This document shows positions 9,303 to 18,826 of a stretch of DNA of 38,357 nucleotides, one piece after another (within the stretch, counting starts at the first letter, position 1; every line of letters starts with the position of its first letter). The notes beneath the pieces were generated by a model. It worked only from the letters and a program-made list of their open reading frames with translations. It ran no database searches and was not told the DNA's origin. The stretch is taken from positions 1 through 38,357 of the IMG/VR virus record IMGVR_UViG_3300045947_000102; one strand, 5' to 3'. The position numbers and the translations under genes are program-made. The DNA is from a virus.

Positions 9303-9662
9303 CTATCGGTTGATCTTCCCTTCCTTCATCTGCGACTGCACCAGGAGCTGAATCAGGTCGTTCGTGTGCCGGTGACTCTCGGCGGAAGTCATCTCGTGCT
9401 GCCGCATCAGTACGGCCAGGTCCTCGACGGCCTTCTCGATCTTCTCGATCCGCGTCTGCTGGACGGCATCCAGGCGCACGTTGTCGTCGAGTATCTCCAT
9501 CGCCGCCTCGTGCCGGATGAGCATCTGACGGTCGATGACAGCCGCCTCGACGTTCTGCCGCCACCCGGCATACCACCCGACCAGAATGGCCACCCCACCC
9601 AGGAGAGTGGCCCACCCTACCGCCTTGGCCAGTTGAGCCTTCCCGTTCAGCAGGTCAGGCAT
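9303..9662 (-). CDS. Membrane-anchored coiled-coil protein (i-spanin or holin accessory)
   Basis: 119 aa with one N-terminal membrane segment (about 12-31, KAVGWATLLGGVAILVGWYA) and a long charged helix (about 55-115) predicted to form a coiled coil. This is the shape of an Rz-type inner-membrane spanin subunit or a holin-like protein of the lysis cassette. ATGCCTGA overlaps the end of the peptidase gene by eight bases. With the small lipoprotein at 10230-10439 it could form a two-component spanin, although that gene order is not the usual one. Confidence 0.6.
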   Translation of the reverse strand: MPDLLNGKAQLAKAVGWATLLGGVAILVGWYAGWRQNVEAAVIDRQMLIRHEAAMEILDDNVRLDAVQQTRIEKIEKAVEDLAVLMRQHEMTSAESHRHTNDLIQLLVQSQMKEGKINR

Positions 9663-10230
9663 GGAGTCCCCCCGTCGGCCACTGCAGCTCCCCGCCCATC
9701 TCGAGGACCGCCTTCACCTGCGCCAGCGGCCCCACGACGAGCTCCAGGTGCATCAGGTCGTTCTCGCCCCGCTCGAGGTAGACGCGGTCCCCGTCCCAGT
9801 CCATCCCGCTCCGCAGCCCCAGGGCCTGCCCGTGCTCGGCCATACGCTGGTAGCGCGCCAGGTCGGCCCTGGACAGCGCCTCGTGCGGCCCCAGGCCCAG
9901 CAGCGTCCCGGAGGGGTGGCAGCCCTGACAGTAGAGCGCGACGTGCACTGCCAGGCTGGCGGGCACCATCAGGCCGTCATGGGAGCGCCGCCGGAGCTGG
10001 TGCAGCGAGTCCCCGGGCCTCTTCCAGGTCACGACCGCGGCCTTGTCGATCACCTCGCCCGCCGTGTTCCTCCCCTTGGCCCAGGCGACCGCTTGGCCGC
10101 TCTCGTCCCGGTAGGTCTCGATGACCTTCCCGGGGCCCGTGAGAGCGTCGACTGCCAGACGCGGCAGCAGGAGCGCCTCGACAACATGGCGCAGGACGGG
10201 ATGGAGATGATTCAGGTCGCGGTCGGCCAT
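9655..10230 (-). CDS. M15-like peptidase, probable endolysin with altered metal site
   Basis: 191 aa. The frame shows the order of M15 (L-Ala-D-Glu / D-Ala-D-Ala) peptidases: HPVLRHVVEAL at 10-20, ETYR at 38-41, WAKGR at 50-54, a Ser-x-His block at 75-77 and a terminal MHLEL (His161). Normally S-x-H is followed seven residues later by an Asp zinc ligand in the strand AVD. Here about a dozen extra residues are inserted and the strand reads LAVHVAL, with His96 where Asp is expected. It would cleave cell-wall peptides at lysis. Start ATG 10230 has GAGGGGGA upstream and a TGATG overlap. Confidence 0.65.
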   Translation of the reverse strand: MADRDLNHLHPVLRHVVEALLLPRLAVDALTGPGKVIETYRDESGQAVAWAKGRNTAGEVIDKAAVVTWKRPGDSLHQLRRRSHDGLMVPASLAVHVALYCQGCHPSGTLLGLGPHEALSRADLARYQRMAEHGQALGLRSGMDWDGDRVYLERGENDLMHLELVVGPLAQVKAVLEMGGELQWPTGGLHA

Positions 10231-10439
10231 CAGTCCCCCTCGTCTCCCTTGCAGGGCTCGCAGTCCTGACCGTGCCGGCACTTGCCCTTCGGGCACTCGA
10301 CCGGCGGCTTCTCCACCGTCGGCAGGAGGTTGATGATCTCCCGCGTCGTCTTCTTGTCGGCACAGGAGAAGCAGGCCGCGGCCAGGACGAGACCGATGAG
10401 CACCGAGAACAGCCAGCCGATGATGTGATGTCGCTTCAT
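10230..10439 (-). CDS. Small exported, lipoprotein-like protein (o-spanin candidate)
   Basis: 69 aa. The N-terminal hydrophobic segment (IIGWLFSVLIGLVLAAACFSC) contains a lipobox-like LAAAC, so the mature protein could be a lipid-anchored outer-membrane peptide. The rest is Cys- and Pro-rich (CPKGKCRHGQDCEPC). Small Pro-rich lipoproteins beside an endolysin are typically Rz1-type spanins that fuse the membranes at the last step of lysis. GGAGG lies ten bases upstream. Confidence 0.6.
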   Translation of the reverse strand: MKRHHIIGWLFSVLIGLVLAAACFSCADKKTTREIINLLPTVEKPPVECPKGKCRHGQDCEPCKGDEGD

Positions 10440-10753
10440 GGACAGGGATCCTCCGAAGTGTTCCCGGCCTGGTCGACAGCGACCGGGCGGTAGATGTCGA
10501 CGCCTCCGACAGGTGGGACTGGCTGGGCCATCAGGTCGATCCCGGTCTGGTCGGTGAACTCCACCTGGAGCCAGGGCGAGCGGGCATAGACGGGGCACTG
10601 AATGCCCGGCTCGCACTCGTACCAGCCTGAGACCCACACGGCCATGACCAGGATCGCGTAGCCGAGCACGACCTCGGGCCCGCCCTGGCAGTTCGTGACG
10701 ACAGGGTCCCACCGGAGCCAGGCGTGCGTCAGCAGGAAGGGGATCCAGCCCAT
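10436..10753 (-). CDS. Unknown protein between beta-helix gene and lysis genes
   Basis: 105 aa (106 if the adjacent GTG at 10756 is used). An internal hydrophobic stretch (VVLGYAILVMAVWVSGWY) could be a membrane segment or signal anchor. The C-terminal half looks like a short Ig/fibronectin-type strand set ending VAVDQAGNTSE. The start overlaps the stop of the beta-helix protein and the stop overlaps the lipoprotein ATG. It may be a membrane-anchored partner of either neighbour. Confidence 0.6.
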   Translation of the reverse strand: MGWIPFLLTHAWLRWDPVVTNCQGGPEVVLGYAILVMAVWVSGWYECEPGIQCPVYARSPWLQVEFTDQTGIDLMAQPVPPVGGVDIYRPVAVDQAGNTSEDPCP

Positions 10754-13125
10754 CACTGGCTCACCACGGCCCGGCGCCGGATGATCGTCCCGGCGGCGCC
10801 CGTGAACTCGTCTGCGCCGATGTCAACCGTCCCCGAGGCCGCCTGACAGTCGTTGTAGGACGGCAAGCCGTGCGCGCTCGCGAGGCTGTTGCAGATATCC
10901 GTCGTCCTCCCGCTCGGCATCCCGGTCGAGGTGCCGGCGTCCTTCGCCGGGCTGCTGGTGGTCAGGTGGTAGTCGCTGGCCGAGACGAGCGCGAGGTAGC
11001 CGGCGCTCGACGAGCAGAGGCTGTTCGAACAGTTCCCCGAGCAGCCCGACGCGACGCTGGCGCAGTTATACCCGGTCCCGAGCCAGGTCACCGGAGTGGC
11101 GTTGCCTGTCTCCATAGCAGCGTTCGACAGCGTGTTGCCGCTGCCGCTCCCGGGCGCCGCGATGTTGATCGCCTTGAGCGACGACCCGGACAGGAACAGG
11201 TTGTTGCGGATGGTGTTGTTGGAAAAGGCGCCGCTGAACGTGCCGCTCACGATGCCGCCGTTGAGCCCTGGATTGATGCAGGAGTTGTTGTAGTAGGACA
11301 GCGTCGAGATCGTGTTCGTCGTGTTCACGTCCGCGTAGGTGAAGACCTGCGCGCACTCGCGCCCCTGGTCTACGATGAAGTTGTTGTACCACTCTTGCCC
11401 GGAGGAGCTCGCGTTCTTGCATTGGCAGGTGCCGGCGCAGTTCCCCTGCGGCGAGGCGTCGATCGTGAAGCCCTGGTTGTTACCAGCGCGCAGAAGGTAG
11501 TTGTCGTGGACCTTCACCCCCTCGACGCAATGCTCCATGCGAATCCCGTAGGTCGAGGATTGGTCCGGGCGCGCCTTGATGTCCACGATCAGGTTGCCGC
11601 TGATCTCGGAACCGGTCATGTTGCCGCGCGTCGCCCCCGAGTCCTCGGCCGGGTTGCAGGTGATCCCGACCGGGGTCCCGGCCGTCATCGCCGTCCCCAT
11701 CACGGCCTGGTTGCCCTGGTCGTGGATGTGGTTGTTCTGGATCTTGATGACCGAAGCCGTCCCGGTCAGGTAGGAGTTGCAGTGGACGCCCTCGCTGTTC
11801 GTGTAGGCGATCTCGTTCCCGCTGATGGTGGCCCGGTTGGCGCGGTAGAACACCATGCCGTAGTCGCTGCCGCCGGTGTCGCTGTTGAAGAACACCCGGT
11901 TGTCGAGAGCGAACAGGTCGCCGCGGTCGATGGCGTCCTGATCGCCGTCGGAGTAGATCGCCGCGTGACGATGGCAGCGGAAGTCGAAGCCCTGGATCTT
12001 CACCCAGTCGGCTTGCTTCTTGTAGGTGAACCCGGTCCCGGCGCCGGTGTAAGAGACATAAGGCCGCTTCGCCGTTCCTGGCGCCTGAGAGCCGGTGCCC
12101 CACCGGACGTACAGGACGTTGTTCGCCGGGTCGCGGTAGTGGTCGATCTCCGGGGAGACGTTGGCGCTGCACGTCTCGCCGCTCAGGCAGTCGGAGTTCG
12201 TCGTGCACGGCATCCACTTCTGATTGGAGTCGGCGCTGTTGGTGCAGCGGTCGTCGTTGTAGGAGCCGTGCGCGTTTGTCATGTCGAGCAGGCACGTCCC
12301 GGCGTCGGCCCCGGTGCAGCAGGCGTAAGGGTTCCCCGAGCCTACGCACGCCGCGTTGTTGAGGTCGCAGGTCCCCGTCCCGGAGCCGGTGCAGCAGGCG
12401 AAGGGAGAGCCCGAGCCAGAGCACGACGTGTTGAAGCCTCCCGTGCCGTAGGTGATGCTCCCGTCGTCCTTCTGCGCCCACAGGACGTTCGCTGCCGTGC
12501 CCGACTGGAACCCGGTCCCGGCCGTGCCGGCGTCAGTCGTCCACCACGTCTCGGTGCAGGCCGTGGAGTTCGCGGCGCCCACTTGGATATTCTGCCGCAC
12601 CGCGTCGCAGTCGCAGTTCGTCCCGTCCCAGGTGCATTGCTGCCAGGCGCCGGCGGTGCCACTCGTGCCGCACTTCGCTGCGTCGCCCGTCGCGGAGTAG
12701 TCGCAGTTCGTGCCCGTGCAGCCGGAAGGCTTCGGGCATCGTGTGCCGTCGATGTAGACGCGCTCCTGGCCAGCGCCGTAGTTGTGGGGGTTGATAAGGG
12801 GGAAGGTCCCGGAGGCGCAGTCCACGTCGATCGCGTACTCGTTCCCGAAGTACCGGCCATCGAACGTCCCGCTGGCGTGGTTGCTGCTGTCGCTGTGCGA
12901 GGCCGCCGTGTGGACTCCGCGGACGACGTAGGTGTTGCTGCACGCTTCGCTCGGGCCGATGACGCCCTCGATCTTGTTGAAGGGACCGTTGCCGCCGCCG
13001 CTGGAGGCGCAATCGATCGCCGTCCCGTTCCCGTTGTTGTTGCAGCCGCCGTCGATGTAGACGGTCGCCGCCAGTGCGGGTTGCGCCATCAGCAGCGCGA
13101 GCAGGCCCGTGAGGGCTCGCCTCAC
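10753..13125 (-). CDS. Giant exported right-handed beta-helix protein with Cys repeats
   Basis: 790 aa. A signal peptide (MRRALTGLLALLMAQPALA) is followed by a Cys-rich region and then beta-helix turns (SGNEIAYTNSEG, IQNNHIHDQGN, ISGNLIVDI, VKVHDNYLL, SNNTIRNNLF). The end SPAKDAG...GTVDIGADEF is the signature seen at the C-terminus of many bacterial secreted beta-helix ('choice-of-anchor Q' type) proteins. Two tandem copies of a motif CxGSGxP(F/Y)ACCTGx3GTC lie around residues 234-280. The gene takes the place where tail fibre or spike genes usually stand. GTG 13125 overlaps the previous stop. It may be a tail spike that binds or degrades a glycan, or a surface protein of the lysogen. Confidence 0.8.
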   Translation of the reverse strand: MRRALTGLLALLMAQPALAATVYIDGGCNNNGNGTAIDCASSGGGNGPFNKIEGVIGPSEACSNTYVVRGVHTAASHSDSSNHASGTFDGRYFGNEYAIDVDCASGTFPLINPHNYGAGQERVYIDGTRCPKPSGCTGTNCDYSATGDAAKCGTSGTAGAWQQCTWDGTNCDCDAVRQNIQVGAANSTACTETWWTTDAGTAGTGFQSGTAANVLWAQKDDGSITYGTGGFNTSCSGSGSPFACCTGSGTGTCDLNNAACVGSGNPYACCTGADAGTCLLDMTNAHGSYNDDRCTNSADSNQKWMPCTTNSDCLSGETCSANVSPEIDHYRDPANNVLYVRWGTGSQAPGTAKRPYVSYTGAGTGFTYKKQADWVKIQGFDFRCHRHAAIYSDGDQDAIDRGDLFALDNRVFFNSDTGGSDYGMVFYRANRATISGNEIAYTNSEGVHCNSYLTGTASVIKIQNNHIHDQGNQAVMGTAMTAGTPVGITCNPAEDSGATRGNMTGSEISGNLIVDIKARPDQSSTYGIRMEHCVEGVKVHDNYLLRAGNNQGFTIDASPQGNCAGTCQCKNASSSGQEWYNNFIVDQGRECAQVFTYADVNTTNTISTLSYYNNSCINPGLNGGIVSGTFSGAFSNNTIRNNLFLSGSSLKAINIAAPGSGSGNTLSNAAMETGNATPVTWLGTGYNCASVASGCSGNCSNSLCSSSAGYLALVSASDYHLTTSSPAKDAGTSTGMPSGRTTDICNSLASAHGLPSYNDCQAASGTVDIGADEFTGAAGTIIRRRAVVSQ

Positions 13126-14560
13126 TGCTGGCGCCTCAGAGTCACCACCGCCTTGACCAGCTTCGCGCTGTCGTTGTTGCTGTCGCTGGCTCCGTCCCGG
13201 CTCACCCGCAGCGTCAGGTCCTCGCCGGCCGCGCAGCCCGTCGTGGTGATCCCCGTCTGCGTCGCATCGTTGAGGTTGTTCTGAGAGCCGGCCGCGTCGG
13301 TGATGGTCTGGATCGCGTTGAACGCGCCGTCCCAGGACTCGCCCGCCGCGCGGCAGACTGTCGAGAGGTCCCACTCCACGTTCCCGGTCGGGCTCGCGGC
13401 CGTCGTGACGTAGCGCAGCGTCACGTCGATGCTGCCGATCCAGTCCGTCGGGAGCTGCAGCGTGCGCTCCATCGTGTTCACGGCGGAGCCGGAGTAGTCC
13501 GCGCTCGGGCGCTGGATCGCGCCGGTGTCGTTGCAGGCGGCGGTCGGCGTCGTCGCGCCATCGCCAGGGTCATCCCAGGCGCGCGCCGCAGTCGCCGCGA
13601 CGCAGGAGGCGGCGTCCAGGTCGATCTTGGAGACGAGCGTGATGACGTTGCCGGTCGCCTCCGCGTCGATCGTCTTGTTGGTCAGCGTCGCCGTGCTGAA
13701 CGTCTCCGACGTGCTGAGCCAGGTCATCGTCCCAGACGTGGTGATCGCCGCGGGCGAGGTCAGGTCGGAGACCGCCAGCGCGCCGACCGTCTGCAGCAGC
13801 GTGGCCGTGGTGCCCGAGTAGCCCGCCGCCGAGTTGTTGACCTCGATGCTGCTGTGGGCCAGCCGGAACGTCCCGGCGTCCGCCACGACCATCCCGTAGT
13901 CAGTCACGGTCGGGTCGGCCGTGTTGTAGAGCCTGGCCGTGACGTGGTTGAAGGTCGCGTTGTCCTCGAACTCCCCGAGCATGGCGATCGCGGTCAGGGG
14001 GTAGATGCAGGCGTTGTCGTCGCTGGTCCCCGACGGCTGCGTGCCGCGCACGACGATGTTGTTGGTCACACTGACCGCGACGTTGTCGATGAGGGCCTTC
14101 TGGTGCTCGGCCGTGTCCGTGTAGCCGAGGATGCCCGTGATCGTCTGCTGCGCGTTGCACTTGGTCGAGCTGTTGGGCTGCGGGCCGAAGTCGTTGACCT
14201 CGACCTCGATGACGGAGTTCGTCAGCTTGGTGTAGTCCAGGTCCGGCACGGTGTTCTGAGAGATCACCACGCCGAAGTGGAAGCCGGTCGTTTTCCAGTA
14301 GCCGCTAAATCCGGCATTGGCCCTGATGGCGCTCCAGTCGACCTCGTGGCACGGGGCCTCGGTGGCGTTCGGCACGGCGTCGATCTGGTACTGACAGTCG
14401 GCGGTGGGCGTGAAGCCCAGGGCCGTCGTCTGCAGCAGCTTGGTGCTGCCTGCGTAGTCCAGCACCCAAAAGTGGACCGCGACGCCCCCGTTGCAGACGC
14501 CCGCATCGCACGTCCCGGCGCCGGAGCCGGTGCAGCAGCCGAAGGGCGTCCCCGAGCTGG
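12291..14560. repeat. Dispersed Cys-motif DNA repeat, three copies
   Basis: Related stretches of about 50 bases at 12291-12342, 12367-12418 and 14509-14558 all contain GGTGCAGCAG and a CCCGAG or CCCCGAG end, and encode the P(F/Y)xCCTGxxxGTC motif. Two copies are tandem in the 790-aa protein and one lies in the 819-aa protein. They imply duplication or recombination between the neighbouring genes. Confidence 0.7.
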
Positions 14561-15581
14561 TGCACGCGGCGTTGGTCGGCTCGACGATCGTGCCGTGGCG
14601 GCCGACGTAGGCCTCATCCGTTGTGCTGGCCGACGAGTCCAGCGTGAAGTGCGAGCCATCGGCCCCGGTGGTGACGACGGTCAGATAGTTGCCGGCCGTG
14701 GTCGGGTTCCGGTTGGTCACCGCCGTGTCGGTCGTCTCGCAGTAGTTCGTCATCGTGCGGATATAGACGTGGTCAATCGTCAGGTCGACCGCGCCCTTCT
14801 TGGCCACGTTGTCGGTGCCGCCGATGGAGATCAGGTTCGAGACGACGGCCCGCGGGATGCCGGTGGTCGTGTTGCTTTGCGTGCTGTTGCCGAGGAACTG
14901 GATCGTGTCGTGGTTGCCGATCCAGATGCCGCCGGTCACGGTGATGTCGTCCCACTTCGGGGAGGTGTTCGGCACCTCGGTCGAGCCGCTGCCGCCGACT
15001 AGCAGGGCGGCCTCCGGGGAGCTGAACGCGTCGTTGCGGACGAGGCCCTCCGAGGCGATGGTGATCCGCCGGACGATCGTGCTGCTGCTGTTGCCGATGC
15101 GGATCACGCCGCCGTCGATGGAGGTGGCCGACGTCACGGTCGGGACGATCCTGGCGCCGGCCTCGATAGTCAGCTTGATGTCCGTCTTGTCGTTGATCGC
15201 GACGCACTCGTTGTAGGTGCCGGGCCGCACGATGACGTTGTATGGGTTGGACTCCGACGAGTCGGTGATCGCGTTGATGGCGCTGCCGCCGACGCAGTTG
15301 CTGTTGATGACCGAGCAGGTAGCGCCGCAGATGGTCGTGAACTCGCAGCCCGAGGGGCAGACCTCCTTGACCTTGACCGCCGTGCGCGTGAAGGCGCCGC
15401 CGGTGATCTTGAGCCCGGCCCCGAAGGTCTGCAGGGCAGCGAACGTCCAGGTGCGCCCCTGCAGCAGGTACGGCGTGATCGCGTTGAGCACCTGGGCGGG
15501 CGCCAGCGTCCACAGGGTCAGGAGCAGGAGCCCCGTCAAGGCCGAGACCGCAAGGAGACGTCGCATAGGGTTCTGCCTCAC
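13122..15581 (-). CDS. Second giant exported beta-helix-like protein
   Basis: 819 aa. The hydrophobic N-terminus (MRRLLAVSALTGLLLLTLW...APAQ) reads as a signal peptide. The body alternates short beta turns rich in Ile/Val/Asn/Thr (VIRIGNSSSTIVRRITI, VSNLISIGG, LTIDHVYIRT), as in parallel beta-helices. One copy of the Cys motif shared with the next gene (SSGTPFGCCTGSGAGTC) occurs near residue 345. The GTG at 15581 overlaps the upstream stop (GTGA); ATG 15566 is an alternative. It forms an adjacent, probably functionally linked pair with the 790-aa protein downstream. Confidence 0.75.
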   Translation of the reverse strand: MRQNPMRRLLAVSALTGLLLLTLWTLAPAQVLNAITPYLLQGRTWTFAALQTFGAGLKITGGAFTRTAVKVKEVCPSGCEFTTICGATCSVINSNCVGGSAINAITDSSESNPYNVIVRPGTYNECVAINDKTDIKLTIEAGARIVPTVTSATSIDGGVIRIGNSSSTIVRRITIASEGLVRNDAFSSPEAALLVGGSGSTEVPNTSPKWDDITVTGGIWIGNHDTIQFLGNSTQSNTTTGIPRAVVSNLISIGGTDNVAKKGAVDLTIDHVYIRTMTNYCETTDTAVTNRNPTTAGNYLTVVTTGADGSHFTLDSSASTTDEAYVGRHGTIVEPTNAACTSSGTPFGCCTGSGAGTCDAGVCNGGVAVHFWVLDYAGSTKLLQTTALGFTPTADCQYQIDAVPNATEAPCHEVDWSAIRANAGFSGYWKTTGFHFGVVISQNTVPDLDYTKLTNSVIEVEVNDFGPQPNSSTKCNAQQTITGILGYTDTAEHQKALIDNVAVSVTNNIVVRGTQPSGTSDDNACIYPLTAIAMLGEFEDNATFNHVTARLYNTADPTVTDYGMVVADAGTFRLAHSSIEVNNSAAGYSGTTATLLQTVGALAVSDLTSPAAITTSGTMTWLSTSETFSTATLTNKTIDAEATGNVITLVSKIDLDAASCVAATAARAWDDPGDGATTPTAACNDTGAIQRPSADYSGSAVNTMERTLQLPTDWIGSIDVTLRYVTTAASPTGNVEWDLSTVCRAAGESWDGAFNAIQTITDAAGSQNNLNDATQTGITTTGCAAGEDLTLRVSRDGASDSNNDSAKLVKAVVTLRRQQ

Positions 15582-16345
15582 GGAGCGAGAGGACGTTCAC
15601 TCCAGAAGAACGTGGCGTAGTCGATGCGCCAGATCCCGAGGTCGGCGCCGCCCTGGACGACCGAGAAGCACGGCCGCAGGGTTATCGTGTCGGGGACATT
15701 GCTGGAGACGGGGAACCCGCTGATCTGCCCGCCGTCGATGTAGGCGTCTACGGTCAGGGCACTGCCGGTCTGGACGATGTTGAACAGGAACGCGGTCCAG
15801 TTGCCGACGTTGCCGAGGTCGGCGGACGTGGTTCCGGCGCCGCCCTTGTTGACCTTCGCCTTCCACTTGCCGGCGCTGCCGCGGATCACGCCGATGAAGT
15901 CGGTCGTGTCGGTCTGAGCGGTCGTGCCAGTGAATGAGGCGTCCTGCAGGCCGAAGGCGATGTTCGGGGAGTCATCGGTCGTCTTGGCGCGGAACGCCAT
16001 CACCACAGACTGCGTGTTGCTCAGGCGGACCCTCATCTTCTTCGTGGCGGCGAGGATGTTGGAGAACCCCGAGGCGCCCGATGCCGACAGTTCGCAATAG
16101 TGATCCGTCGCGCTGATCGACGGGGCCGTGCCTGTGGCGCCGCCGCTGTCGGAGATCCAGATGTCACCGTCGATGGCCTCGGCCGCGAAGTCGTCGTAGA
16201 TCGCTTGGTCGCTGAAGATCCCGATCGTGCCGAAGAGCTCGTTGAAGTGCCGGTCGTTGTTCCGGAAGTCCGTCATCAGCCCCGTCGTGCCGGGCTTGTT
16301 CGCTGCGATCCGGGCGTCCGTGATGTCAACGTAAGGAGTCGTCAC
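15578..16345 (-). CDS. Tail appendage protein (possible receptor-binding or fibre connector)
   Basis: 255 aa, not recognised. The N-terminus (TDFRNNDRHFNELFGTIGIF) resembles short anchoring segments of tail fibres. The rest is beta-rich with strands of a jelly-roll or lectin-like fold (WTAFLFNIVQTGSALTVDAYIDGG, RIDYATFFWSE). No signal peptide is present, unlike the two genes downstream. GTG 16345 has GAGG six bases upstream. It probably sits at the tail tip and may bind a carbohydrate. Confidence 0.6.
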   Translation of the reverse strand: MTTPYVDITDARIAANKPGTTGLMTDFRNNDRHFNELFGTIGIFSDQAIYDDFAAEAIDGDIWISDSGGATGTAPSISATDHYCELSASGASGFSNILAATKKMRVRLSNTQSVVMAFRAKTTDDSPNIAFGLQDASFTGTTAQTDTTDFIGVIRGSAGKWKAKVNKGGAGTTSADLGNVGNWTAFLFNIVQTGSALTVDAYIDGGQISGFPVSSNVPDTITLRPCFSVVQGGADLGIWRIDYATFFWSERPLAP

Positions 16346-16348
16346 GCT

Positions 16349-18826
16349 CTACCTCGTGATGTAGTAGCCGTCGTCGTTCGCTGCGCCGACCCGGTTGGCG
16401 GCGTTGCCGATGAACCAATAGCGACGCTCCTGCTCGGACGCCGAGTCGTAGTCGGCCGCGATGGTGTTCTCGGCGAAGAAGATCGGGCGGTGCAGGATCC
16501 CGGTGTCGAGCAGGCGGACCTTCATGCGGCCGCCCCCGGGGTCGCGCTCCTTGCGGATCACCTGCATGATCCGGCGTGTGTCCGTGGACCCGTCCGGCTT
16601 CTGGATCTGGTCCGTCGTGACGTAGACGAAGACGCCGAGCTTCACGCTGTCGTCGTCCCGGGCCTCCAGGGCACCGGTCACAATCCGGGCCCCGTCGATG
16701 AAGCGGGCCAGGATGCCGTCGGAGGTCGCCTTCGCCTGGGCGATGTCGGTCGCCCGGATCCACTGGCTCAGGATGATCTTGTCGCGCACGCTCCCGTGGA
16801 ACCCGGGCCCCTCCGTCGTCGGGTCGAGCGCCAGGGCGATCTGCGCGTAGTCCCCGAGCACGTCGCCCCGCTCGCCCGGGATGAGGTCCCAGCCGAGCGC
16901 GACCCGGCTCAGGCGCGCCTCGTTGTCCTGCTCGACCTCGATGCTGTCCTCGAGGAAGTGGGTCGCGTCCGTCAGCTCGACGAGCGTCTCGGTCGGCGCC
17001 GGAGCCGCGAAGATCCGGGTCGTGACGAGCCGGTCCTCGTCCACGTACTGGAACGAGACCAGGTCCCGGTCGATCTCCTGCAGCAGCGTGTCGATGTCCG
17101 TCTGCTCGGTGAGCGTGCGACGGAACAGGATCCCGCTCTGAAGCCCCAGGGTCCGGTCGACGCTGCTGTAGACCCAGGTCGCCCGCTGGTCGAGGATGAA
17201 GGCGCTGTTGATCTGCGCCCAGGGGATGCCCGCCTCGCGATAGAGCGCGAGCTTGATGTCCAGCGGGTTCGCCCCGAGGACCGGGGCCGAGGCGCTCAGC
17301 TGCTCCGTCCCGTACTCCCGGACCTCGCTGAAGACCTCGTTGTCGGCGTGGGCGATCGCCGTCGTCCCCCAGCGGCCGCGCGTCACCGTCAGCGGGTTCC
17401 CCCCGGCGGTCTTAGCCAGGAGCGTCATCTTCTCGGTGCCGAGCTGGAGGACCACGACCCAGTCCGGACCGCCGGTGCGTGCGCCTCCGGAATCGAAGGT
17501 CTCGGCCACGTTGGCGTTCGGGGCCGGGTCGCTGATCTCCGTCGGGTCGTCCACATTGATGGACGTCACGGAGGCGTCGATGGCGCCGACGAGCAGGTTG
17601 TCCTGGCTGATCTTCGAGGGGATCTTCCGCTTCGTGACGTGCAGCCCGTCCCGGCTCTCGATGCTGGCGATCCCGCCGCCGCTGACCTTGACCTCGACGA
17701 TCGGGCCAGACAGGCGCAGCCGGAAGTCGGCCTCGACGACGCCCGAGAAGACGTACCCGGTGTACAGCTTCGCGTAGCCCCGCGGGTTGTCGAAGTTCCG
17801 GTGGATCGCCAGCCACCGGCGCCAGAAGGTCCCGCTGCCGCGCGCCGTGTTGGTCAGCGCGCCCTCGCTGGCCTTCTCCAGGTCGAAGTTCCCCGGGTCG
17901 GCGTCATCCTCGAGGCGGTAGGTCACGCTCTCGTTCCGGGTGACGAAGCCGCCGTGCTCGTTCTCGCTCTTCGCCCCGCGGATGCCGTCGATCTCCTGGG
18001 GGGCCTCGTCGAAGGAGGCGAGCATCGGGCGCATGATGGCGCCCTTGATGGGGAGCGGGGCCTGCTTCAGGCAGAACTTGTATTCGCGCAGCCCTTTGAG
18101 GGCGACCGTCGCCTCGTAGTCGTTCCCCGCGTTGAAGTTCGCGGGGTCCTGGCAGGTCGGTGCCGAGTAGGAGCAGCGCGATCCGTTCCCCGCATCCGCC
18201 GCCTGGCACCGGGAGGCATTGACGGAGAGCGTCTGCGTGATCTCGCCCTCGCGCAGCCGGGTTGGAAACAGGTGTCCCGTCGCCGGTGGCGAGTCGAGGG
18301 CCGGGATCTTCGTCATGTTGGCGCGCCAGACCACGACCTGCGCCAGGTCACCCGCCTCGCGCCGGATGCCGTACCGCCGGACTCCTGTGCCGGGCGCCAC
18401 GTGGACCCAGTCGAAGCGCGTCCAGGTCGTGGTCACGGTGACGACGCTGTCGCTCACCTCGCCGCCGCCGGACTTGTACATCCGGAGCGTGATGGTCCCC
18501 GAGCCAGCCAGCGTGCGGAGCCAGACGCTTCCCGTGTAGGTATCTCCGATCGCCGCCGTGATGCTGAACGTCGGGAGCTGCTCGACGCTGCCCGTGGCTG
18601 CGGTGTAGTCGATCGTGTCGGCTGTGACCGAGCCGTCCGGGGCCTCGGTCGTGTCGGACGTGATGGTGGCGTTTGTCTTCACCCAGTCCGAGTCGGAGAG
18701 CTTGTCGGTCCACTTGATGCCCTGCTCGTAGGTCTTCGCATACCAGTTCTGGCAGATCGGCACGGCCAGGACGAGCAGCGCCTGGGGCGTGCGGCCGAGG
18801 GCGTCCCGTTCCTCGGTGTAGCCCAT
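16349..18826 (-). CDS. Tail tip / central hub protein with N-terminal carbohydrate-binding-like domain
   Basis: 825 aa, the largest tail-tip protein. Residues about 45-165 (DWVKTNATITSD...GSVTADTI..., VSVLR-type strands, TWTRFDW) look like a CBM4/9-type carbohydrate-binding module. Residues about 200-830 look like a tail hub or baseplate protein: a strand-rich core (GYVFSGVVEADFRLRL), the segment VTRGRWGTTAIAHADNE and a helical part (TLLQEIDRDLVSFQYVDEDRL). It follows the distal tail protein with a TGATG overlap, the order seen in siphovirus tips. It likely organises the host-binding end and could carry the adhesion function itself. Confidence 0.7.
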   Translation of the reverse strand: MGYTEERDALGRTPQALLVLAVPICQNWYAKTYEQGIKWTDKLSDSDWVKTNATITSDTTEAPDGSVTADTIDYTAATGSVEQLPTFSITAAIGDTYTGSVWLRTLAGSGTITLRMYKSGGGEVSDSVVTVTTTWTRFDWVHVAPGTGVRRYGIRREAGDLAQVVVWRANMTKIPALDSPPATGHLFPTRLREGEITQTLSVNASRCQAADAGNGSRCSYSAPTCQDPANFNAGNDYEATVALKGLREYKFCLKQAPLPIKGAIMRPMLASFDEAPQEIDGIRGAKSENEHGGFVTRNESVTYRLEDDADPGNFDLEKASEGALTNTARGSGTFWRRWLAIHRNFDNPRGYAKLYTGYVFSGVVEADFRLRLSGPIVEVKVSGGGIASIESRDGLHVTKRKIPSKISQDNLLVGAIDASVTSINVDDPTEISDPAPNANVAETFDSGGARTGGPDWVVVLQLGTEKMTLLAKTAGGNPLTVTRGRWGTTAIAHADNEVFSEVREYGTEQLSASAPVLGANPLDIKLALYREAGIPWAQINSAFILDQRATWVYSSVDRTLGLQSGILFRRTLTEQTDIDTLLQEIDRDLVSFQYVDEDRLVTTRIFAAPAPTETLVELTDATHFLEDSIEVEQDNEARLSRVALGWDLIPGERGDVLGDYAQIALALDPTTEGPGFHGSVRDKIILSQWIRATDIAQAKATSDGILARFIDGARIVTGALEARDDDSVKLGVFVYVTTDQIQKPDGSTDTRRIMQVIRKERDPGGGRMKVRLLDTGILHRPIFFAENTIAADYDSASEQERRYWFIGNAANRVGAANDDGYYITR

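Follow-up and report, generated by a model that had tools for sequence, protein, structure and literature searches.

Results

Two genes with export signals lie in the tail-fibre slot

Why should two adjacent phage genes, placed where tail fibres are usually encoded, each begin with a Sec signal peptide? Textbook assembly of tailed phages is cytoplasmic, and the preliminary description of this locus was right to call such signals odd: ordinary tail fibres are assembled in the cytoplasm and carry none. The window, by which we mean the whole stretch of DNA that was analysed, corresponds to a 38,357-base virus record of IMG/VR. By its sequence the phage looks like a temperate siphovirus; it encodes a Mu-like portal, a gpT-like head protein, tail proteins, an integrase and an endolysin. 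The late genes are carried by the minus strand, where the tail tip is followed by a 255-aa gene, an 814-aa gene, a 790-aa gene, a 106-aa Cys-rich gene, a small lipoprotein-like reading frame (a possible outer spanin) and the endolysin:

9655..10296, minus strand, endolysin (phrog_465, E 2e-6)
10436..10756, minus strand, 106-aa Cys-rich protein, overlapping the 790-aa gene; fibronectin-III-like by eye, no Pfam match
10753..13125, minus strand, 790-aa protein with a signal peptide and 39 cysteines, putatively of beta-helix type (open reading frame; Cys count; weak match to a beta-helix protein of record L130)
13122..15566, minus strand, 814-aa fibre-like protein with a signal peptide (open reading frame; Shine-Dalgarno site and start read; C-terminal homologs)
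15578..16345, minus strand, 255-aa protein without signal peptide, adjacent to the fibre gene on its upstream side; perhaps a lectin-like tail protein, by eye
16349..18826, minus strand, 825-aa tail tip or adhesin without signal peptide (phrog_11439, E 3e-26; NCBIfam GTA_spike_fiber; tblastn to siphophages)

Homologs of the tail-tip protein were found by tblastn in siphophages of Pseudoalteromonas, Marinomonas, Idiomarinaceae and Oceanospirillum. The 814-aa and 790-aa genes both sit between the tail tip (phrog_11439) and the endolysin (phrog_465), and their stop-start overlaps indicate a single late operon running from one to the other. The 106-aa gene, coupled to the 790-aa gene, may be another member of the cassette.

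Both minus-strand frames of the preliminary description were recovered from the list of open reading frames and by reading the sequence. The gene given there as 819 aa stands, but its start is more likely the ATG at 15566 (814 aa), which has a GAGG 9 nt upstream, than the GTG at 15581. The 790-aa gene starts with the GTG at 13125, 8 nt downstream of a GAGG, and overlaps the preceding stop by 4 nt (GTGA). Each protein begins, as had been claimed, with a textbook Sec signal peptide of n-h-c architecture with an AxA site and no lipobox:

13069..13125, minus strand, Sec signal peptide of the 790-aa protein, MRRALTGLLALLMAQPALA followed by A (read directly; Shine-Dalgarno site)
15495..15566, minus strand, Sec signal peptide of the 814-aa protein, MRRLLAVSALTGLLLLTLWTLAPA followed by Q (read directly; scored by the script described below)

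Judged from these N-termini, Sec export of the two proteins is well supported. Cysteine makes up 2.4% of the 814-aa protein and 4.9% of the 790-aa protein; the tail, portal, terminase and endolysin proteins counted for comparison range from 0 to 1.8%, and the 106-aa neighbour contains 3.8%. A module CxGSGxPxxCCTGxGxGTC is found in both:

12274..12435, minus strand, two copies in the 790-aa protein
about 14490-14576, minus strand, a single copy in the 814-aa protein

The 790-aa protein also gave a sub-threshold match to a Myxococcus Cys-rich repeat (TIGR04201), which may point to the host. Neither protein showed a membrane or surface anchor, the sole hydrophobic segment noticed being the signal peptide, and PHROGs and the family libraries revealed no virion-attachment domain in them.

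The 814-aa protein ends in a domain found on other phage fibres

Single-sequence searches with both proteins against viral contigs and phages, and with the 819-aa form against plasmids as well, returned no relatives. These were reached only by searching with a DNA pattern that encodes the fibre motif LTNKTxDxExTGN. Most matches were fibre-like proteins without the C-terminal domain, and a few shared the last ~190 residues (L031, 47%); profile searches added further members of this domain from viral contigs and Acidobacteriota MAGs. The C-terminal ~190 residues of the 814-aa protein are thus a domain that follows the LTNKT phage-fibre motif and recurs in other phages:

13125..13697, minus strand, LTNKT motif (13671-13685) and C-terminal jelly-roll domain with four cysteines (homologs; AF2; fold match)

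AF2 gave a pLDDT of about 90 over residues 641-814, the only confidently modelled part of the protein. This part has the jelly-roll fold of CBM6/35/36 (Z up to 13.8, rmsd 2.3, 123 residues), so the label 'beta-helix' does not hold for the C-terminal domain of the 814-aa protein. Acquisition of host genes by the phage was considered and rejected, the domain being rare in Acidobacteriota genomes (2 of 396). Fibre-type modules, that is the LTNKT motif and the C-terminal domain, were found in the 814-aa protein alone of the pair.

These modules bear on the earlier suggestion that the proteins coat or decorate the lysogen. They would then be displayed on, or secreted from, the lysogenic cell, as a coat or for superinfection exclusion, in the manner of a soluble lambda Lom. 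The phage has an integrase, and it is generally known that Sec-exported beta-helix proteins can be substrates of type II secretion. Lom itself is a phage-encoded product with a signal peptide, synthesised in lysogens from a gene that lies between those for the tail spike and the fibre (PMC12309495). However, the stop-start overlaps couple both genes to the late tail genes, there is neither a lipobox nor a known surface anchor, and the modules are of fibre type. Lysogenic conversion fits less well with a place in a late tail-lysis operon and with the lack of an anchor, and we regard it as having only a slim chance of being correct.

Signal peptides follow a clade of four-cysteine fibres

Signal peptides were called by a fixed home-made script, not SignalP, and only readable N-termini were counted. 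They were present in 15 of 17 proteins of the clade that has the four cysteines of the C-terminal domain, versus 3 of 22 in a Cys-free sister clade (Fisher 3.5e-6); the four cysteines are invariant in the former clade only. The two four-Cys proteins not scored by the script are unsure cases: L126 has no start codon just ahead of its hydrophobic stretch, and L137 has a long n-region. In the tree the four-Cys proteins form one clade with full support, and the other three signal-peptide fibres, which lack the four cysteines, fall in two places. The signal-peptide state changes at least two to three times on this tree, about three in all, and the members of the main clade therefore cannot be counted as separate gains. 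We therefore rejected the idea that signal peptides and the four cysteines covary through independent events, since they fall mostly in one clade.

The N-terminal regions of the signal-peptide fibres belong to about 13 unrelated families, which indicates that the signal peptide was kept or regained during domain swapping. Over whole proteins, cysteine is weakly enriched in those with a signal peptide (median 1.26% vs 0.81%, p 0.04). An exception to this link is L171, a fibre-like protein of 909 residues that has 36 cysteines and no signal peptide. Two proteins from gut proteobacterial MAGs (L138, L139) have a signal peptide and an LTNKT-like motif without the C-terminal domain.

Whole gene cassettes carry signal peptides

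The gene next downstream of the fibre encodes a signal peptide in 12 of 15 four-Cys loci versus 1 of 19 control loci (9e-6), and in the single control locus concerned, L183, the fibre bears a signal peptide too. The script overlooked the 790-aa gene of the window, the frame of which had been over-extended; this gene would be the thirteenth. Chance as the source of these signals was considered and set against the same script's result for the genes two to four places upstream, none of which scored (0/26).

The pairing of a signal-peptide fibre with a signal-peptide protein of beta-helix type, whose recurrence the preliminary description had proposed to look for, is found again in L129/L142 and in L130. 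The downstream protein of L129/L142 is beta-helix-like by eye only, and in L130 one further signal-peptide gene lies between the two. In L128 two or three more signal-peptide genes come next, ahead of an endolysin-like gene. The signal-peptide partners of the relatives contain beta-helix, LamG and fn3 domains, the third such protein of L128 being a Pfam fn3 match. Some downstream genes group into families across loci (L135, L136 and L148; L130 and L152), and one such family has a homologous domain, without signal peptide, within a virion gene cluster.

Several loci have features of their own. At L183:9257-11803 four signal-peptide genes stand in a row around a signal-peptide fibre, in the Cys-free clade, most other members of which have no signal peptide; one of the four, of 149 aa, resembles by eye the partner gene, lacking a signal peptide, beside EBPR siphovirus 2 gp74. 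In L136 (11286-11933) and L148 (11248-13014) the second signal-peptide gene starts with the ~QNWTTVxAxNITDLNQQ domain that also opens that phage's signal-peptide fibre; the two proteins may dock through it.

For the 790-aa protein itself, the beta-helix label can be kept tentatively, on rungs recognised by eye and a weak match to L130:

10801..10980, minus strand, C-terminal SPAxDAG...DIGADEF end (28% to the L130 beta-helix protein)
11195..12003, minus strand, at least seven beta-helix-like rung repeats, by eye

The C-terminal end, earlier described as typical of secreted beta-helix proteins, matches the L130 protein together with one rung stretch, weakly (28%, single-comparison E 5e-5); in that partner protein Pfam recognises a beta-helix (PF13229). 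The AlphaFold model of the whole 790-aa protein (pLDDT 31) was unusable for fold. Pfam, NCBIfam and PHROGs named neither the 814-aa nor the 790-aa protein, none reaching cut-off for the latter, and sequence searches of the PDB were empty or gave chance matches such as a ferredoxin (E 0.3).

It could be argued that nothing is exported, the hydrophobic N-termini being anchors or assembly handles of cytoplasmic fibres, or the true starts lying downstream. This explanation would keep to the normal site of fibre assembly, and in-frame start codons do exist downstream, for example the ATG at M20 of the L130 fibre. However, Shine-Dalgarno sites stand ahead of the signal-peptide starts, the n-h-c architecture with AxA sites is repeated on unrelated proteins, the four cysteines are invariant only in the signal-peptide clade, and neighbouring genes bear signal peptides too. 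We consider it improbable.

In L130 a signal peptide precedes a virion-attachment domain

The record L130 looks like a podovirus and encodes a T7-like tail protein (phrog_376). Its fibre begins with a signal peptide of 25 residues, MKLKSIFLVLALLLATPVFMPPAEA, preceded by a GAGG site and followed by a mature sequence starting IVFFNGIPRNDYTGNGSTTTFAYTF. After the signal peptide comes a T7 gp17-type N-terminal domain (PF03906, 28.6 bits for a cut-off of 25.2; phrog_1640, E 7.5e-31), the only PF03906 match in the record. In T7 this domain is what anchors the fibre on the particle. The gp17-type domain of five other phages begins at the predicted mature N-terminus of the L130 fibre or one or two residues from it, so that the 25-residue signal peptide is placed precisely before the attachment domain. 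No signal peptide was found on the IMG/VR relatives of this domain (L191-L193), and among the signal-peptide relatives only L130 shows a known virion-docking domain.

The L130 fibre is central in weighing virion attachment against its main rival, in which the exported products act free. Here the genes would encode late-exported, glycan-binding or depolymerising factors loosed at lysis and never part of the virion; they would strip or mask receptors and polymers so that progeny avoid debris, or clear the matrix around the burst cell. The place of the operon beside the lysis genes agrees with this, as do the glycan-binding-type fold and the beta-helix, LamG and fn3 domains of the relatives' partners, and the tail tip and the 255-aa protein, both without signal peptide, could be the receptor-binding parts of the window's virion. 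On the other hand, the L130 signal peptide precedes a virion-attachment domain, and both the LTNKT motif and the long shafts of repeats in the relatives are typical features of fibres carried by virions. Free action at lysis is in our view unlikely, although less so than the alternatives discussed above.

Discussion

A possible late-exported fibre cassette

We tentatively favour, at a little under even confidence, the reading that the 814-aa and 790-aa genes form a late, Sec-exported receptor-binding/depolymerase cassette whose products fold outside the cytoplasm and join virions at lysis. This distal cassette would be switched on late, together with the genes for tail and lysis, and its products routed via the host Sec system. 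The signal peptides would be cleaved off at the inner membrane, and the mature proteins would fold, probably with disulfides, outside the cytoplasm. There they would wait until lysis, when they would meet and attach to virions freed from the cytoplasm. The 814-aa protein would be a fibre with a glycan-binding jelly-roll tip, and the 790-aa protein a beta-helix spike or depolymerase. The signal peptides, the place in a late operon, the fibre motif, the fold of glycan-binding type and the recurrence of signal-peptide cassettes are seen in the sequences, and we infer cleavage, disulfides, location and docking; attachment of the window's two proteins to virions is suggested by analogy with L130. 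Among the three guesses of the preliminary description, spikes assembled by an unusual route is thus the best supported, by the fibre motifs and by the attachment domain that follows the L130 signal peptide; the blocking of competing receptors, another of the three, is possible.

Since related phages carry export signals on whole sets of fibre genes, some phages may export fibre proteins before use. More broadly, some tailed phages, including elements in Acidobacteriota genomes, could divide assembly between two compartments. Heads and tails would arise in the cytoplasm; the fibres and spikes, with their partner proteins, would be exported through Sec and fold oxidatively in the periplasm, and the two sets would be joined only at lysis. 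We hold this wider proposal to be possible, and would lean against it rather than for it at present. To our knowledge, fibres of other phages can be attached extracellularly in vitro, and this is not known to happen naturally. A search of the open-access literature, in which few subscription papers and preprints were covered, gave no description of tail fibres exported through Sec. Late attachment is reasonable, as long tail fibres of T4 can be added to particles that lack them (PMC3004832).

Should entire sets of fibre genes have exported products, the Sec and Dsb systems of the host and its periplasmic chaperones would become phage assembly factors, disulfide-stabilised fibres would be possible, and the annotation rule that a protein with a signal peptide is not a virion protein would be wrong for such phages. 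If the proteins act free, they would form a class of phage factors, exported late, with glycan-binding or depolymerising activity.

Comparison with known systems

The nearest precedent is lambda Lom, a signal-peptide gene in the same slot (PMC12309495). Lom is an outer-membrane beta-barrel, in contrast to the large fibre- or beta-helix-like proteins of the window. Tested for a Lom-type barrel, these gave no family match; the confidently modelled part is a jelly roll, the remaining model being unreliable. Bacterial secreted right-handed beta-helix proteins (SPAxDAG...DIGAxEY end) share with the 790-aa protein the signal peptide, the rung-like repeats recognised by eye and the C-terminal end. 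The 790-aa protein differs in belonging to a phage late operon and in having no Pfam or NCBIfam model over cut-off. The 814-aa C-terminal domain is homologous to the fibre tips of EBPR siphovirus 2 gp74 and Synechococcus phage S-CRM01, which however have no signal peptide and none of the four conserved cysteines. With CBM6, CBM35 and CBM36 this domain has the jelly-roll fold alone in common, at about 10% identity, and carbohydrate binding by it is putative. Finally, T7 gp17-type (PF03906) and LTNKT-repeat fibres resemble the window's cassette in gene slot, fibre motif and a tip of glycan-binding type, with the gp17-type domain itself present in L130. Known members of the gp17 type begin directly with the virion-attachment domain, without a signal peptide. 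The signal-peptide cassettes can be described as a variant of tail-fibre cassettes, and there is a substantial chance that they reflect a two-compartment route, which would be new for tailed phages.
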